From: Alphaproteobacteria bacterium
GTDB lineage: Bacteria > Pseudomonadota > Alphaproteobacteria > GCA-2731375
Length of the DNA stretch: 12,443 nucleotides
Direction: 5' to 3'
NCBI GenBank assembly: GCA_030746295.1
Contig: JASLMY010000148.1
Coordinates: forward strand, 1 to 12,443
A program made the position numbers and the translations under genes. Shown one piece after another: positions 3,738 to 12,372 of this stretch (position 1 is the first letter of the stretch; the number at the start of each line of letters is the position of its first letter). Under the pieces are notes generated by a model. It was not told where the DNA came from. It ran no database searches and worked only from the letters and a program-made list of their open reading frames with translations.

Positions 3738-5078
3738 ATGACCGATGCAGGGACGGAAGGCGGCGGCGCGGCGGTTGGCCGATTGGCCGAGATGTCGGCG
3801 GCCGAAGAGGCGCACGCGGCCCTAGCCGACAGCTATATTTCGGGCCGCGCCCACGGCACCACCTACATGCCCGACGACGTCCGCTTCGTCGTCGAGCGCG
3901 GCCAGGGCGCCCGGGTCATGGACGAGAGCGGCAATTGGTACGTCGACTACGTGATCGGCGCCGGCGCCATGATCCTGGGCCATACCCACCCCGCCGTCGA
4001 GGCGGCGACGATCGGTCAGATCCGCCGCGGCACCCATTTCTATTCGCTGCTGAACGGGCCGGCGATGGAGCTGGCGACCGAGATCGTCGCTGCCAGCCCC
4101 TGCGCCGACAAGGTGATGTACACGACCACCGGCTCGGAGGCGACCTTCTACGCCTTGCGCCTGGCCCGTGCTTATACCGGGCGCGACAAGGTGCTGAAGT
4201 TCGAGGGCGCCTATCACGGCTCGCACGACTATAGCCTGGTCTCCAGCGCGCCGAGCCAGACCTCGAACTACCCGGTCGGCCAGCTCGATACCGGCGGCGT
4301 GCCGACGGGCCTGGATGAGAGCGTGCTGATCGCACCCTACAACGATCTCGACGCGGCGGAGCGGATCGTCGCCGAGAACGCCGACGACATCGCCGCCATC
4401 ATCGTCGAGCCGATCCAGCGCATTCTGACGCCCGAGCCGGGGTTCCTGGCGGGCCTGCGCGCCGTAGCCGACAAACACGACAGCCTGCTCCTCTTCGACG
4501 AGGTGGTGACCGGTTTCCGTCTCGCCTATGGCGGGGCGCAGGAGTACTACGACGTCCGCCCCGACCTGGCGAGCTATGGCAAGGTGGTGGGCGGCGGCTT
4601 CGCCCAAGGCGCGGTGGCGGGCCGGGAAGAGGTCATGGATCTGACCGACCCGACGCGCAAGGGCCAAGGCGCCTTCGCCTATGTCAACGGCACCTTCAAC
4701 GGCAATCCGGTCGCCGCCGTGGCGGCGCTGGCGACCTTGGAAGTGTTGCGCCAGCCCGGCACCTACGAGCGGCTGAACCAAAACACGGCCCAGCTCAGGA
4801 CCGAGATGCAGGCGATCCTCGACCGCCACGACCTGCCGGCGCTCGTCATCGGCGATGCCTCGATGTGGCAGATCCTGTTCACCGACACGGTGCCCCGGAA
4901 CTACGCCCAGTACATCCAGGCCGACATGGCGCGGACCAAGGCGCTCGACGAGGCCCTGATCCGGCACGGCGTCCTGGTCTTGCCGCTGGTGCGGCGCAAC
5001 GTCTCGGTCGCCCACGACGAGGACGACTTCGAGGCGACGCTCCGGGCCCTCGATGCCGCCTGCCGCGAGGTCGCCTAG
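3738..5078 (+). CDS. Class III PLP-dependent aminotransferase (glutamate-1-semialdehyde aminomutase-like)
   Basis: 446 residues from the ATG at 3738, with GAAGGGA at 3723-3729 as ribosome binding site. An in-frame upstream ATG at 3672 lies inside the likely promoter, lacks a ribosome site and adds a segment without family features. The fold-type I (class III) aminotransferase pattern is complete: GSEA (132-135) and YHG (159-161) in the cofactor site, the PLP-contacting Asp254 in FDEVVTGFR, and the Schiff-base Lys282 in SYGKVVGGGF. GTFNGNPVA resembles the GSA aminomutase subgroup. Such proteins include glutamate-1-semialdehyde aminomutases, omega- and beta-amino acid transaminases and antibiotic-pathway aminotransferases. 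The divergence around the lysine (GGGFAQGAVAGR), and the absence of other haem genes nearby, argue against hemL. The substrate cannot be told from the sequence. The next gene begins 10 bp after the stop. Confidence 0.92.
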   Translation: MTDAGTEGGGAAVGRLAEMSAAEEAHAALADSYISGRAHGTTYMPDDVRFVVERGQGARVMDESGNWYVDYVIGAGAMILGHTHPAVEAATIGQIRRGTHFYSLLNGPAMELATEIVAASPCADKVMYTTTGSEATFYALRLARAYTGRDKVLKFEGAYHGSHDYSLVSSAPSQTSNYPVGQLDTGGVPTGLDESVLIAPYNDLDAAERIVAENADDIAAIIVEPIQRILTPEPGFLAGLRAVADKHDSLLLFDEVVTGFRLAYGGAQEYYDVRPDLASYGKVVGGGFAQGAVAGREEVMDLTDPTRKGQGAFAYVNGTFNGNPVAAVAALATLEVLRQPGTYERLNQNTAQLRTEMQAILDRHDLPALVIGDASMWQILFTDTVPRNYAQYIQADMARTKALDEALIRHGVLVLPLVRRNVSVAHDEDDFEATLRALDAACREVA

Positions 5079-6956: not shown

Positions 6957-8159
6957 TCAGCCGTCGTAGGCGCCGACGATGGCGACGGAGGAGACGTTCT
7001 GGTGCGGGAATCCGCCCAGGTTGTGGGTCATGCCGAAGCGCGGGTCGGCGAGCTGGCGATCGCCGGCCCGGCCCAGGATCTGCGAGTACATCTCGTAGAG
7101 CATGCGCAGCCCCGAGGCCCCGATCGGGTGGCCGAAGCACTTCAGGCCGCCATCGATCTGGCAGGGGATCTGGCCGTCGGCGTCGTAGAAGCCGTCGAGC
7201 ACGTCGCGCCAGGCCTCGCCCTCCTTGGAGAGGTAGAGGTCCTCCATGGTCACGAGCTCGGTGATCGAGAAGCAGTCGTGGCACTCGAACATCGAGACCT
7301 CGTCGCGCGGGCTGTCGATGCCGGCCTCCTTGTAGGCCCGCTCGGAAGCCTTGCGCGTGGTCATGAAGTAGCTGCCGTCCCAGGAGTTGTGGCTGGCCTC
7401 GACGCCGTTGGAGACGGCGAGCTGCAAGGCCTTGACGGTGACCAGGTCCGTCTTGCCGAGCGAACGGGCGATCTCGGGCGTGGTGACGATGGCACAGGCC
7501 GATCCGTCGGAGACGCCGCAGCAGTCGAAGAGGCCCAGGGGCTCGGCGATCATCGGCGCGTTCAGCACCGTGTCGATGTCGATCTCCTTGCGCAAATGCG
7601 CCTTCGGGTTCTTGGCCCCGTTGGCGTGGCTCTTGACCGAGATCTGCGCCATCGCCCGCTTCAGCTCGTCCTTGTCGACGCCGTGCTTGGTCTGATAGGC
7701 GGTCGCCAGTTGGGCGAACGAGCCGGGCGCCGAGGCGTTGGCCCAGTACATCGAGTTCAAGACGCCGCGGCCGCGCTGCGGCAGGCCGCCGTAGCCGGTG
7801 TCTTTCAGTTTCTCCACACCGGCGGCAAGGGCGATGTCGGCGGCACCCGAGGCCACCGCGTAGACAGCACCCCGGAACGATTCGGTGCCGCTGGCGCAAT
7901 AGTTCTCGACCCGGGTGACCGGGATGTAGGGCAACCGCAAGGCCACCGCCAGCGGGATGCCCGACTTGCCAACATGGACCTCCTCGATCGCGGTGGAGAA
8001 CCAGGCGGCGTCGATCTGGCTGCGCTCGATGCCGGCGTCCTTGATGCATTCCTCGAAGGCCTCGACGATCAGGTCATCGGCCTCCTTGTCCCAGCGCTCG
8101 CCGAACTTCGAGCAGCCCATGCCCAGAATCGCGACCTTGTCCCTGATACCGGTAGCCAT
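6957..8159 (-). CDS. SCP2-type thiolase / acetyl-CoA acetyltransferase family protein
   Basis: 400 residues; a perfect AAGGAG (8168-8173) sits 8 bases upstream of the ATG. The protein is a thiolase of the SCP2/SCPx-like group without an attached sterol-carrier domain. All catalytic loops are visible: nucleophile Cys88 in NYCASGTES, the HDCF loop with His294 and Cys296, GHP with His344 in CFGHPIGASG, and THNLGG near the C-terminus. This set is the one known for SCP2-thiolases, in which the second cysteine comes from HDCF. It should therefore be active in thiolytic cleavage or Claisen condensation of acyl-CoAs. The gene lies 28 bp downstream of the HMG-CoA-synthase-like/DUF35 fusion gene, and the unit ends at a good terminator. 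Related thiolases in archaea and in steroid-degrading actinobacteria work in complexes with DUF35 proteins, so a physical complex with the neighbour is likely (inference). The substrate is unknown. Confidence 0.93.
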   Translation of the reverse strand: MATGIRDKVAILGMGCSKFGERWDKEADDLIVEAFEECIKDAGIERSQIDAAWFSTAIEEVHVGKSGIPLAVALRLPYIPVTRVENYCASGTESFRGAVYAVASGAADIALAAGVEKLKDTGYGGLPQRGRGVLNSMYWANASAPGSFAQLATAYQTKHGVDKDELKRAMAQISVKSHANGAKNPKAHLRKEIDIDTVLNAPMIAEPLGLFDCCGVSDGSACAIVTTPEIARSLGKTDLVTVKALQLAVSNGVEASHNSWDGSYFMTTRKASERAYKEAGIDSPRDEVSMFECHDCFSITELVTMEDLYLSKEGEAWRDVLDGFYDADGQIPCQIDGGLKCFGHPIGASGLRMLYEMYSQILGRAGDRQLADPRFGMTHNLGGFPHQNVSSVAIVGAYDG

Positions 8160-8187
8160 GCCTTGAACTCCTTCGTTGACGGCGGGC

Positions 8188-9642
8188 CTAATCGTCGGCC
8201 AAGGCCGGCGCCGCCTTCCAGAAATATTTCGTGAACCCGCGCTGGTTGTCGTGCTCCTTGACGCGGAACATCATCCGCATCGACATCCCGACCTCGACGC
8301 CGCCCACGTCGACATCGGTCAAGTCTGCCATAAGCCGGCCGCCCTCGGCAAATACGACCATGCCGAAGTGCTGCGGCGGATCGAGCGAATAGGTCAGGCC
8401 GTCGGCGGTCCAGCTCTGCACCGTCGCCGGGGTGTCGGCGAAGGAATGGTCGTCCTGGCTGTGGAATTCGCCGCAGTTGGGGTTGACGCAGACGTTCGAC
8501 TTCGGGAACTGCACCGTGCCGCATTTCCGGCACTTGCCGCCCATCATGCCGATCAGCATCTCCTTGTTACGGAAGAGCGAGGACAGCGCGGTCTGCTTGT
8601 CGACCTCGCTGCGCAAGCCCCGGTCCATCTCGACGATCTCGTTGAAGGACTGGAACTTGGCGTAGTTGGTCTCTTCCTTGCGACGGGCGAGGTAACCCTT
8701 GATGCCCTGGCGGGCCCCGAGCGATTTCAAGGCATCGGTGGTGCGGAAGAGGATCGCGTCCGCCCCCTGGCCGAAGCCGACGACGACGATGTTTTGGCCC
8801 GGCTCCGCCTCCTGCAGCTTCTGGACCAGCATGACAAGGGCGTGCGCGGCACCTGAATCGCCCATCACCGCTGCCAGGTTGTCGGAGACCGCCTCCGCCT
8901 TGATGCCGGTGCGCCGGGCCATCAGGGCGCCCAAGTTGCGGATCATCGCCGGCATGATGAAATGGTCGACGTCCTCGGCCGAGATGCCGGTCGACTGGAA
9001 GAGCCCCTCCAGCGCCGGCGGCACGATCTTCATGTAGCCTTCGTCGCGGATCCAGCGCTCCTCCCAGCCGTAGTCGAAGGCCTCGTTCTGGCCGCGGTAA
9101 TGGTCGACGAAATCGACCGCCTCCTGGTGCGCGCCGACGAATTCCGCGATCACCCCATCGCTGCCCAGCATCAGCGAGGCGGCCCCATCGCCCGACATCA
9201 GCTCCAGCGCCGCAGCCGCCTTGGTGCGGCGGTGCTCGCTGGCGATGTAGAGGGCCTGGCCGCCCAAGCCCTGGACCGCGTTCAGCGCCGTGATCAGGCC
9301 CGAGGTGCCGGCCCGCTGCGAGGAGGTGATGTCGAGCGTCATCAGGTTCTGGCCGAGGCCGAGCGCAGTGGTCAGCACGCTCGAGTTCTGCCGGTCCTCG
9401 AAAGGCAACGTGGTCGAGGCCAGGAAGACGCCTTTCAGGTCCTCGGGACGGTCACCGGCGAGGCAGTCGCGCCCCGCCTCGACGGCCATGGTAAGCGCGT
9501 CCTCGTCCCAGTTGCACATCGCCCGCTCGCCCTTGCCGTGGGCCTTGAGGGCGGAATTGAACCAGCCGTTCGCCTCGACGACCGACTTGCGTTGAAGACG
9601 AAGCCGGGGGACGTAGCCCCCATATGCGGTAATGCCGACCAT
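8188..9642 (-). CDS. HMG-CoA-synthase-like protein fused to a DUF35 zinc-ribbon/OB-fold domain; catalytic residues replaced
   Basis: 484 residues from the ATG at 9642, with GAGGGA at 9652-9657. Residues 1 to about 315 follow archaeal HMG-CoA synthases: VGITAYGGYVPRLRL at the start, WDEDALTMAVEAGRD, SGDGAASLMLG, and NIVVVGFGQGADAILF at the end of the domain. Residues about 330-480 are a DUF35 domain: zinc-ribbon cysteines 371, 374, 385 and 390, then a beta-rich OB-fold tail. In ungapped local alignment to archaeal enzymes from memory, the catalytic Glu is Thr77 (FLASTTLPF), the nucleophilic Cys is Gln109 (SSQRAGTSG), the catalytic His is Pro231 (FIMPAMIRN), and a conserved Asn is Asp262. It cannot be a normal HMG-CoA synthase. 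It may be a scaffold, a decarboxylase or an aldolase-like enzyme. The thiolase gene follows 28 bp on. The reading frame is intact and well started, so it is not a decayed gene. Confidence 0.9.
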   Translation of the reverse strand: MVGITAYGGYVPRLRLQRKSVVEANGWFNSALKAHGKGERAMCNWDEDALTMAVEAGRDCLAGDRPEDLKGVFLASTTLPFEDRQNSSVLTTALGLGQNLMTLDITSSQRAGTSGLITALNAVQGLGGQALYIASEHRRTKAAAALELMSGDGAASLMLGSDGVIAEFVGAHQEAVDFVDHYRGQNEAFDYGWEERWIRDEGYMKIVPPALEGLFQSTGISAEDVDHFIMPAMIRNLGALMARRTGIKAEAVSDNLAAVMGDSGAAHALVMLVQKLQEAEPGQNIVVVGFGQGADAILFRTTDALKSLGARQGIKGYLARRKEETNYAKFQSFNEIVEMDRGLRSEVDKQTALSSLFRNKEMLIGMMGGKCRKCGTVQFPKSNVCVNPNCGEFHSQDDHSFADTPATVQSWTADGLTYSLDPPQHFGMVVFAEGGRLMADLTDVDVGGVEVGMSMRMMFRVKEHDNQRGFTKYFWKAAPALADD

Positions 9643-9693
9643 GCCGCGCGTTCCCTCGATTTTTCGTTGCCGTGCCGGTTGCGTGCTGGCGCC

Positions 9694-9721
9694 AACATAT
9701 CAGCCGCCTAGGCCCGGTCAA
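9694..9721 (-). promoter_or_regulatory. Putative sigma70-type promoter of the HMGCS-like/thiolase unit
   Basis: Read on the minus strand, TTGACC (9721-9716) and TATGTT (9699-9694) are 16 bp apart, matching the consensus at 5 and 4 of 6 positions. The expected start of transcription near 9687 leaves a leader of about 45 bases with the ribosome site GAGGGA. A small hairpin (TTCGAC/GTCGAA, 9745-9760) lies just upstream and could be an operator, but nothing proves it. Confidence 0.5.
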
Positions 9722-9861: not shown

Positions 9862-10632
9862 CTACTCCCGATAGCTCGGATCGAGGCGGTCGAGGCGGCG
9901 CAAGTGAGCCGGCCAGTCCTTGTCGGCGAACTCGGTGCCGCCGGTGAAGAAGGCCGTGGTCTTCTCGATGGTGGAGTCAGAAATTGGCGTCAGCGGGGTG
10001 CCGCAGGCCATGGCGTCGACCTGCGCTTGGCAGGCCTTCTCCAGGTAGTAGATCAGGATGAAGGCCTCGGGGATCGAGCGGCCGACTGTGAGAAGACCGT
10101 GGTTCCGCAAGATCAGGGCCCGGTTGTCGGCGAGGTCGCCCGCGAGCCTGGCCTGCTCGGCCTCGTCGACGGCCACGCCTTCGTAGTCGTGATAGCCGGT
10201 GCGGCCGTGGAACATCAGCGCGTGCTGGGTCATCGGCAACAGGCCACAGTCGAGCGACGAGACCGCCATGCCGGCACGCGTATGGGTGTGCAGCGAGCAG
10301 GCGACGTCGGGTCGGGCGGCGGCGATGGCACTGTGGATGACGTAGGCGGTGCGGTTGACCTCGAAGGCGCTGTCGCTTCGCTGCTCGCCGTCGAGGCCCA
10401 TCTTGATCAGGCTTGAAGCGGTGATCTCCTCGAAGAAGACGCCCCAGGGGTTCAGCAGGATCGCGTCCGGCTCGTCCGGCACCCGGGCGGCGATATGGGT
10501 CAGCGCCAGATCGGTCATGTCATAATGGTCGACGAGCCGATAGCAGGCGGCGAGGTCGACCCGAGCCTGCCATTCGGCGTCGGTCACGGTATCGCGGATC
10601 GTGGCGTCGGTGGGGACGATGGATAGCGACAT
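9862..10632 (-). CDS. Class II aldolase/adducin family protein
   Basis: 256 residues. The start is the ATG at 10632 because AAGGAG lies 7 bases upstream; an in-frame ATG at 10650 would place that ribosome site inside the gene. The class II aldolase fold binds a divalent metal through three histidines, here His115 and His117 in SLHTHTRAG and His178 in LRNHGLLTVG. Members cleave or epimerise sugar phosphates, or act as decarboxylases or dehydratases, and many are uncharacterised. The position of the catalytic Glu73 of fuculose-phosphate aldolase falls on Ala96 when counted back from the HxH pair (the interval to His100 matches as well), so classical aldolase chemistry is doubtful. It is the last gene of a probable three-gene operon, 29 bp after the racemase-family gene. 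Its substrate may be related to that of the racemase and carbamoylase (inference). Confidence 0.9.
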   Translation of the reverse strand: MSLSIVPTDATIRDTVTDAEWQARVDLAACYRLVDHYDMTDLALTHIAARVPDEPDAILLNPWGVFFEEITASSLIKMGLDGEQRSDSAFEVNRTAYVIHSAIAAARPDVACSLHTHTRAGMAVSSLDCGLLPMTQHALMFHGRTGYHDYEGVAVDEAEQARLAGDLADNRALILRNHGLLTVGRSIPEAFILIYYLEKACQAQVDAMACGTPLTPISDSTIEKTTAFFTGGTEFADKDWPAHLRRLDRLDPSYRE

Positions 10633-10661
10633 GGCAGAACTCCTTCGCAAAGGTTGGCGGC

Positions 10662-11342
10662 TCAGGCGCGGGCGGCGGTGCGCCAGCCCAGGCGAACCGC
10701 GGCGATGGCCTGGGCGACGGCGGCCTGCGAGGGGTCGAGCACCAGCACGCCCAAGCGCTCCTCCAGCGGCTCGCGGTAGCGGGCCATGCCGGCACAGCCC
10801 ATGATCAGGACGTCGGCGCCGTGCTCGTCCACGAGGCGGCCGCCGACCTCGGCCATACGCGCCTCGACGTCGCCGGTATCACCGTCGAGATCGGTGACGC
10901 CGACGCCGATCGGCAGCTCGCCGGCGAAGCGGTGCTGCAGGCCCATCTGCCGGATGTAGCGGCGGTGGCGGCTGACCGAGGCCGGCAGGATGGCGATGAT
11001 GGCGAAGCGGTCGCCGAGGTTGAGGGCCGCCGACATCGCCGCTTCCGAGATGCCGAAGACCGGGTGGCGCGTCGTCTCCCGCGCCGAATGCAGGCCGGGG
11101 TCGGAGAAGCAGGCCAGCACGAAGGCATCGGCCCGGTTGTCCTCGCGCCCGATCAGCTCGCACAAGGGTCCGACGACGCCGTCGACGTGGCGCTGGCTCT
11201 CGATCCCGGGCGGACCCTCGGCCAGGGTCAGGCAATCGATCTCGGGCCCGTCGGCGAAGCGCAAGGGTGCGACCGCCCGGTCGATGCCTTGCGTTACGGC
11301 CTCGGTGCTGTTCGGATTGACGACGACGATACGCTGGCTCAT
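10662..11342 (-). CDS. Hydantoin racemase / Asp-Glu racemase family protein
   Basis: 226 residues from the ATG at 11342, preceded closely by a GGAGAGGG ribosome site; an in-frame upstream ATG at 11372 would leave that site inside the gene. The family is cofactor-independent two-cysteine racemases. Both active cysteines are visible: Cys78 in VLACFSDPG and Cys183 in LIMGCAGMA. Their spacing agrees with Cys76/Cys181 reported for Sinorhizobium hydantoin racemase. The N-terminus MSQRIVVVNPNST is typical of the hydantoin/allantoin racemase branch. Such enzymes interconvert enantiomers of 5-substituted hydantoins (or allantoin), or are malonate/maleate-handling relatives. The neighbouring D-carbamoylase gene, 88 bp upstream, supports the hydantoin assignment. 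No hydantoinase is present in the window. Confidence 0.9.
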   Translation of the reverse strand: MSQRIVVVNPNSTEAVTQGIDRAVAPLRFADGPEIDCLTLAEGPPGIESQRHVDGVVGPLCELIGREDNRADAFVLACFSDPGLHSARETTRHPVFGISEAAMSAALNLGDRFAIIAILPASVSRHRRYIRQMGLQHRFAGELPIGVGVTDLDGDTGDVEARMAEVGGRLVDEHGADVLIMGCAGMARYREPLEERLGVLVLDPSQAAVAQAIAAVRLGWRTAARA

Positions 11343-11430
11343 GTCCCTCTCCCCGGCACGGCGAAATCCCAAGCCCGCATTCTGACGGCTCAGAGGGATC
11401 GACGCAAAGCTGTGTTGCGGCGCTCGCGCC

Positions 11431-12372
11431 CTATTCCGGCGGCGGGACGGCGGCGGTCTGCTCGGAGATGATCTTGTAGTGCTCGATGCGCCGGTGCTCG
11501 GCGAAATTGAAGATCGTGTCCTTGATGTAGCGGCCCCGGTCGAGATCGCAGACCGCGGTGACGACCTCGTCCTCGACCGTCGTCGCCAACGCCACGATCT
11601 CGCCGGCCGGCGAGACGATGGCCGAGCCGCCCATCATGTCGCAGCCGCCTTCGAGGCCGGCCCGCGCCGTGCCGACCGCCCAGGTGCCGTTCTGATAGGC
11701 ACCGGCCTGCATCGACATGTGGTTGTGAAACATCCGCAAATGCTCCGATTCCTGCGCCACGGCGTTGCCCACGGGCGTGTTGTAGCCGAGCATCACCAGC
11801 TCCACGTCCTGCAGGCCCATCACCCGCCAGGTCTCGGGCCAGCGACGGTCGTTGCAGATGCAGAGACCCATGATCCCACCCATGGTGCGCCAGACCGGAA
11901 AGCCCAGGTCGCCGGGCTCGAAGTAGCCCTTCTCCAAATGCTGCCAGGGCCGGCTCGGGTCGTACTCGGCGTGCCCCGGCAGGTGCACCTTGCGGTACTT
12001 GCCGACGATCTCGGCCTGCTGGTTCACCAATATGGCGGTGTTGAAGCGCCGCTTCCGGCCCTCCGCGTCGGTGAAGAGCTCGGCATAGCCCAAGTGGAAG
12101 CCGACGCCGAGGCGCTTGGCCTCCTCGAAGAGCGGTGCGGTCTGGTTCGACGGCATCTCGGTCTCGTAGAAGCTGTCGAGCTCGGCCTCGTCCTCGATCA
12201 GCCAGCGCGGGAAGAAAGTGGTCAGCGCCAGCTCCGGGAAGACCACGAGGCGGGCGCCGCGCGAATGGGCCTCGCGCAGCAACTCGACCAGGCGGGGGAC
12301 GACGACGTCGCGCCCCTCGTGGCGCTCCACCGGGCCCATCTGGGCGGCGGCGACGTTGATCTTGCGGGACAT
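11431..12372 (-). CDS. N-carbamoyl-D-amino acid hydrolase (nitrilase superfamily)
   Basis: 313 residues, close to the 304 of the Agrobacterium enzyme. It starts at the ATG at 12372 with GGAGGAG a few bases upstream. The enzyme hydrolyses N-carbamoyl-D-amino acids to D-amino acids, CO2 and ammonia in the cytoplasm. The Glu-Lys-Cys triad is at Glu47 (FPELALTTFFPRW), Lys128 (GKYRKVHLPGH) and Cys173 (CICNDRRWPE). The carboxylate-binding arginines of the Agrobacterium enzyme correspond to Arg176 and Arg177, and the active-site histidines to His130, His145 and His216. Motifs such as DEAELDSFYETEMP, QHLEKGYFEPGDLGFP and VEDEVVTAVCDLDR are shared with that subfamily, so the assignment goes beyond generic nitrilase. 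Other N-carbamoyl substrates (for example carbamoyl-beta-amino acids) cannot be excluded. It is the first gene of a probable three-gene minus-strand operon. Confidence 0.93.
   Translation of the reverse strand: MSRKINVAAAQMGPVERHEGRDVVVPRLVELLREAHSRGARLVVFPELALTTFFPRWLIEDEAELDSFYETEMPSNQTAPLFEEAKRLGVGFHLGYAELFTDAEGRKRRFNTAILVNQQAEIVGKYRKVHLPGHAEYDPSRPWQHLEKGYFEPGDLGFPVWRTMGGIMGLCICNDRRWPETWRVMGLQDVELVMLGYNTPVGNAVAQESEHLRMFHNHMSMQAGAYQNGTWAVGTARAGLEGGCDMMGGSAIVSPAGEIVALATTVEDEVVTAVCDLDRGRYIKDTIFNFAEHRRIEHYKIISEQTAAVPPPE

Follow-up and report, generated by a model that had tools for sequence, protein, structure and literature searches.

The 484-residue protein studied here joins an HMG-CoA-synthase-like (HMGCS-like) domain and a DUF35 domain in one chain. 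It has lost the catalytic residues of HMG-CoA synthase, and the next gene encodes a thiolase whose own catalytic motifs are intact. We propose that the fusion is probably a non-catalytic subunit of a two-component thiolase. The pair is best read as a version of the known thiolase/HMGCS/DUF35 complexes in which the PhlA-like and PhlB-like parts have become one chain. In what follows, the window is the whole stretch of DNA that was analysed (12,443 nucleotides).

An HMGCS-like domain fused to DUF35

The features of the fusion gene and its neighbours are collected in Table 1. The N-terminal part of the fusion has the HMGCS fold by domain matching, although the protein falls under the cut-offs of the curated HMGCS models (176 against 244 and 123 against 353 bits). 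Among known structures it comes nearest to three subunits of thiolase complexes (HMGCS, PhlA and MucA), and its best sequence match is PhlA (126 bits; MucA, 65.6 bits). The C-terminal part belongs to DUF35: the Pfam models zf-ChsH2 and OB_ChsH2_C score 30.0 and 32.3 bits (cut-offs 23.2 and 27.1), and residues 360-479 are matched by the DUF35 chain 6esq_E.

Table 1. Features of the fusion gene, the partner thiolase and other genes of the window
Feature	Positions	Strand	Basis
Fusion gene, 484 aa (HMGCS-like domain, linker, then DUF35 with its zinc ribbon and OB fold)	8188..9642	-	
HMGCS-like (thiolase-fold) domain of the fusion, residues ~1-310	8713..9642	-	matches to PhlA and archaeal HMGCS
Thr77 codon, at the catalytic-Glu column	9412..9414	-	alignment
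Gln109 codon, at the nucleophilic-Cys column	9316..9318	-	alignment
Pro231 codon, at the catalytic-His column	8950..8952	-	alignment
Asp262 codon, at the active-site-Asn column	8857..8859	-	alignment
Zinc ribbon of the fusion (zf-ChsH2), residues 367-392, Cys371/374/385/390	8467..8544	-	Pfam; Cys conservation
OB fold of the fusion (OB_ChsH2_C, DUF35), residues 406-460	8263..8427	-	Pfam; 6esq_E match
Ribosome-binding-site-like GAGGGA ahead of the fusion	9652..9657	-	by eye
Promoter-like site ahead of the fusion	9694..9721	-	consensus match only
Partner thiolase, 400 aa (NCBIfam PRK06157; SCP2-type by motifs), begins 28 nt past the fusion	6957..8159	-	model match
Thiolase Cys88, presumed nucleophile	7896..7898	-	invariant 70/70
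Thiolase HDCF motif, residues 294-297	7269..7280	-	invariant 70/70
Thiolase GHP motif, residues 343-345	7125..7133	-	invariant 70/70
Ribosome-binding-site-like AAGGAG ahead of the thiolase	8168..8173	-	by eye
Consecutive genes upstream of the fusion: class II aldolase, Asp/Glu/hydantoin racemase, carbon-nitrogen hydrolase	9862-12372	-	
Aminotransferase like glutamate-1-semialdehyde aminomutase	3783-5078	+	under hemL cut-off

Conservation was scored in two sets of relatives. The subfamily A set (201 relatives) combines 121 proteins, namely the query plus 120 listed of 5990 matches, with the 80 best of 230 loci, and the loci and proteins may overlap. The subfamily B set was found from a 35% identical relative (locus L096) and comprises 120 listed of 815 matches. 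Both samples are the best-listed proteins and loci, so close relatives are over-represented. Cultured carriers include Reyranella soli and Ferruginivarius sediminum. In the tree, subfamilies A and B form one clade (98/98), and this clade is not joined to PhlA; the branch that connects it to PhlA, MucA, HMGCS or FabH is supported at 67/68, with long branches.

The initial annotation had taken the fusion for a maintained protein. We agree: an open frame and good conservation across the family (65% mean column identity in 100 sequences) rule out a decaying pseudogene. The zinc site is more variable. L089 and L090, both of subfamily A, retain just one of the four zinc-ribbon cysteines. Subfamily B proteins (120 listed of 815 matches) retain one at most, and often have a precomputed OB-domain match. 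The family as a whole therefore does not depend on the zinc site.

The catalytic set of HMG-CoA synthase is lost

Alignment with 6esq and 5m3k places Glu82, Cys114, His238 and Asn270 of archaeal HMGCS at Thr77, Gln109, Pro231 and Asp262 of the fusion. PhlA has Cys83, Gly115, Gln242 and Asp274 at the same four columns. This register agrees with the comparison of HMGCS Cys114/Glu82 with PhlA Gly115/Cys83 given in an excerpt of PMC6392133. As controls, five proteins were aligned with the fusion, two of them presumed to be bacterial HMGCS and three presumed to be FabH: Cys, His and Asn were present in 5/5, and the Glu column held Glu in 2/2 HMGCS and Thr in 3/3 FabH. The full replacement of the catalytic set, read in the initial annotation from short alignments by hand, is thus confirmed with intact controls. 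The fusion is not an HMG-CoA synthase, since the defining residues are absent. A mevalonate role, already thought unlikely, is rejected because the catalytic set is lost and because IspE of the MEP pathway is encoded within the window. The loss itself has a precedent that was overlooked earlier: PhlA has lost the same set.

We next give the variation at each column. In subfamily A (201 relatives), Thr77 is kept in 200 and Pro231 in 199; position 109 is Q in 161, L in 33, M in 4 and R in 3, and position 262 is E in 119, D in 81 and Q in 1. Six more distant relatives have Thr77 (6/6), Pro231 (4/6, else A or H) and Gln109 (5/6, else R), with D, V, E, E, H and D at position 262. Among the 120 listed members of subfamily B, Thr77 is invariant (120/120), position 109 is Arg in 119 and Gln in none, and position 231 is His in 99, so that most of the subfamily has this His without a Cys at 109. 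A Cys at 109 was found in none of the 201 subfamily A relatives and in none of the 241 listed members of A and B. The test proposed in the initial annotation, whether Thr77, Gln109 and Pro231 are conserved as a group, gives a mixed answer: Thr77 and Pro231 are nearly fixed in subfamily A, but Gln109 varies and position 231 is mostly His in subfamily B. HMGCS chemistry is lost generally among the relatives seen, and Gln is not required.

The partner thiolase keeps its motifs and occurs with the fusion

The partner thiolase scores 700.6 bits against the PRK06157 model (cut-off 403). We compared 70 thiolase sequences, that is, the copy of the window and those of 69 loci with a near-full-length copy. 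The Cys, HDCF and GHP motifs of SCP2-type thiolases are invariant among them, and are also kept in all 8 thiolases of the genome sample described below (8/8; the G001 copy is also among the 70). Thiolytic activity is predicted from these motifs. Among solved structures its best matches are 7yvy (198 bits) and 6esq_A, which is the thiolase from the archaeal complex (188 bits).

The thiolase adjoins the fusion on the same strand in 68 of the 80 loci and lies ~2-7 kb off in 6. It was not found in the other 6; 5 of these end at most 277 bases from the fusion frame, and the last, L014, is a true miss, with no thiolase across 5.3 kb downstream of the fusion. Intervening genes are present in separated pairs (L053, L028, also L017 and L032): an Amidohydro_2 gene in L053 (L053:11526-12713, Pfam), with similar genes by eye in L017, L028 and L032; a DUF992 gene in L028 (L028:12720-13226, Pfam); and, by eye, FAD-oxidoreductase-like genes.

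Searches of 299 sampled Proteobacteria genomes placed the fusion (E < 1e-80) in 7 of them, 8 copies in all, and the thiolase (E < 1e-170) in the same 7, again with 8 copies; 5 or 6 candidates were scored per genome, so that absences are not certain. The next-best matches are far weaker (fusion, 1e-8; thiolase, 35% identity and 5e-57). One of the seven, G001, is the centre of the sample and was chosen for carrying locus L063. Leaving G001 aside, both genes are found in the same 6 of 298 genomes. If the genomes were taken as independent, an assumption that does not hold, the chance of this would be ~1 in 9e11 (calculated by hand). In G151 and G289 the fusion and the thiolase sit on separate contigs, and the G289 thiolase is close to a contig end.

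Gene neighbourhood

We defined a run as the genes linked to the fusion by gaps of < 200 bases and tallied it in 23 dereplicated loci. The gene caller applied to the loci was simple and rough. The families counted were acyl-CoA dehydrogenase, enoyl-CoA hydratase, MaoC-type hydratase, SDR and acyl-CoA ligase. Families of the beta-oxidation type made up 22/47 in-run neighbours versus 29/255 other genes (CaiB-type matches included), a tally biased upward by the picking of neighbour families (seven query proteins, one CaiB-type) by eye from the same loci. Such a gene was in the run of 9/23 loci and in none of the other 14; the window has none either. The tally is suggestive, a lead and not a test. 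In L026, an SDR and an MFE-2-type hydratase lie just upstream of the fusion, outside the run by the gap rule.

The aldolase, racemase and amidase genes upstream of the fusion have no relatives in any of the 80 loci (E 1e-20, open frames of at least 100 aa), and we therefore discount a joint operon function with them. Elsewhere in the window, the aminotransferase scores under the hemL cut-off (348.6/527.3 bits). One further locus, L103, has an HMGCS-like open frame with catalytic residues that continues into GHMP-kinase-like sequence (by eye; weak IspE match).

Discussion

The nearest known system is PhlABC, the Friedel-Crafts acyltransferase of Pseudomonas (5m3k, 9skh). Like the pair described here, it has an HMGCS-like subunit without Cys, Glu and His, a zinc-ribbon/OB partner and a thiolase-fold catalytic subunit with Cys88 (PMC6392133, in excerpt). 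The same excerpt reports that the substrate is contacted by PhlC residues alone, that activity is lost when Cys88 is replaced, and that a properly folded, functional complex very likely needs PhlA and PhlB. PhlABC is made of three separate proteins, whereas here a single chain holds the PhlA-like and PhlB-like parts, and the lost sites differ (G, C and Q in PhlA versus Q, T and P in the fusion). In the archaeal acetoacetyl-CoA thiolase/HMGCS/DUF35 complex (6esq, 6et9), HMGCS produces HMG-CoA and has Cys114, Glu82, His and Asn in place; the fusion, in contrast, has all four residues replaced and DUF35 fused. CoA binds where the three archaeal proteins meet (PMC6392133, in excerpt). MucABC of Streptococcus macacae (9vbo, 9vbt) also has a thiolase-like partner chain and changed catalytic columns (C, E, Q and Y in MucA, in the printed alignment), but it is more distant and its chains are separate. 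MucA/B/C of related clusters carry out acetylation in tetramate biosynthesis, according to an excerpt of PMC10161427.

By analogy with the docking of PhlA and PhlB with PhlC, or of archaeal HMGCS and DUF35 with acetoacetyl-CoA thiolase, the HMGCS-like domain, stripped of HMGCS chemistry, would dock the downstream thiolase together with the fused DUF35. As in known thiolases, Cys88 of the thiolase would accept the acyl group, and His344 and the His294/Cys296 pair would serve as acid and base. The fusion would act as an assembly scaffold and as part of the wall of the CoA/substrate channel. The likeliest reaction would be CoA-dependent cleavage of a 3-oxoacyl-CoA, perhaps branched or bulky, at the end of a beta-oxidation-like route (fatty-acid-type breakdown); thiolytic cleavage is suggested by the beta-oxidation neighbours in some relatives. 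Of the options named in the initial annotation, that of a non-catalytic partner is the one supported. Two observations stand against this reading: L014 carries the fusion without a thiolase, and the tree joins the fusion to neither PhlA nor MucA.

The pair might instead be a CoA-independent C-acyltransferase like PhlABC or MucABC that places acetyl onto an aromatic or enolic acceptor. The closeness of the fusion to PhlA favours this, as do Arg84, Arg138 and Arg199, which are found in PhlA and absent from archaeal HMGCS, and the acidic residue at 262, likewise shared with PhlA. However, the thiolase is nearer to CoA thiolases than to PhlC, which scores 74 bits at best, and beta-oxidation genes are among the in-run neighbours of 9/23 relatives. 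We consider a C-acyltransferase unlikely.

A different objection concerns the scaffold itself. Arg84, Arg110, Arg138, Asp177, Glu194 and His267 are common to subfamilies A and B, and among the 241 listed members Thr77, Arg84 and Arg110 are invariant (241/241) while Arg138 is kept in 240 and His267 in 239. A pure scaffold would not demand the near fixation of Arg84, Arg110, Arg138 and His267 in both subfamilies. The HMGCS-like domain could thus have rebuilt its active site and carry out a second step on the substrate or product of the thiolase, though we think this doubtful. An equally doubtful form of the idea is a bifunctional pair in which a re-tooled pocket of Thr77, Arg84, Arg110, Arg138 and His267 binds or transforms the thiolase intermediate in a shared CoA site. 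Against a remade site, the loops round the four old catalytic sites are conserved no more highly than random windows (1283/5000 and 602/5000 random sets were as low), and positions 109 and 231 differ between the subfamilies.

Another option of the initial annotation was a retro-aldolase; if the pair resembled Ltp2 or Sal, the fusion would be its DUF35 component. In the steroid aldolases Ltp2-ChsH2 and Sal-Shy and in the thiolase BbsAB, as here, a thiolase fold works with DUF35 (PMC12329534, in excerpt). The DUF35 domain of the fusion is of the ChsH2 type, and a MaoC-type hydratase is close to the fusion in some relatives. Ltp2-ChsH2 and Sal-Shy are without an HMGCS-like subunit, and none is known in BbsAB. 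The aldolase motifs are YDCY in Sal and YDHF in Ltp2 (PMC12329534, in excerpt), whereas the partner thiolase has neither: HDCF and the Cys88 nucleophile are invariant (70/70 and 8/8), which argues for a thiolase rather than an aldolase. In addition, some relatives have SDR dehydrogenases close to the pair, which points to a keto rather than a hydroxy substrate. The aldolase option is therefore improbable and is not supported.

KSQ domains are defined by a fixed Gln at the Cys column and need the active-site His and Asn. A KSQ-like malonyl decarboxylase using Gln109, the analogy drawn in the initial annotation, is in keeping with the Gln found at this column in 161/201 subfamily A relatives and an existing structure of E. 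coli FabH C112Q (9ka5, by entry title), but it is very improbable, since position 109 is L, M or R in 40/201 and R in 119/120 of subfamily B (Gln in 0/120), and the His and Asn columns are also replaced.

Our preferred reading remains that of a non-catalytic subunit of a two-component thiolase. Among the matches listed, we found no description of a fused HMGCS-DUF35/thiolase pair in the CC-licensed PMC literature. In several source databases relatives of the fusion are called HMG-CoA synthase (in others, OB-fold domain-containing protein), which gives a false hint of the mevalonate pathway. The fusion reduces the thiolase/HMGCS/DUF35 architecture to two genes, a compact setting for studying what an HMGCS subunit contributes to a thiolase once its own catalysis is lost.
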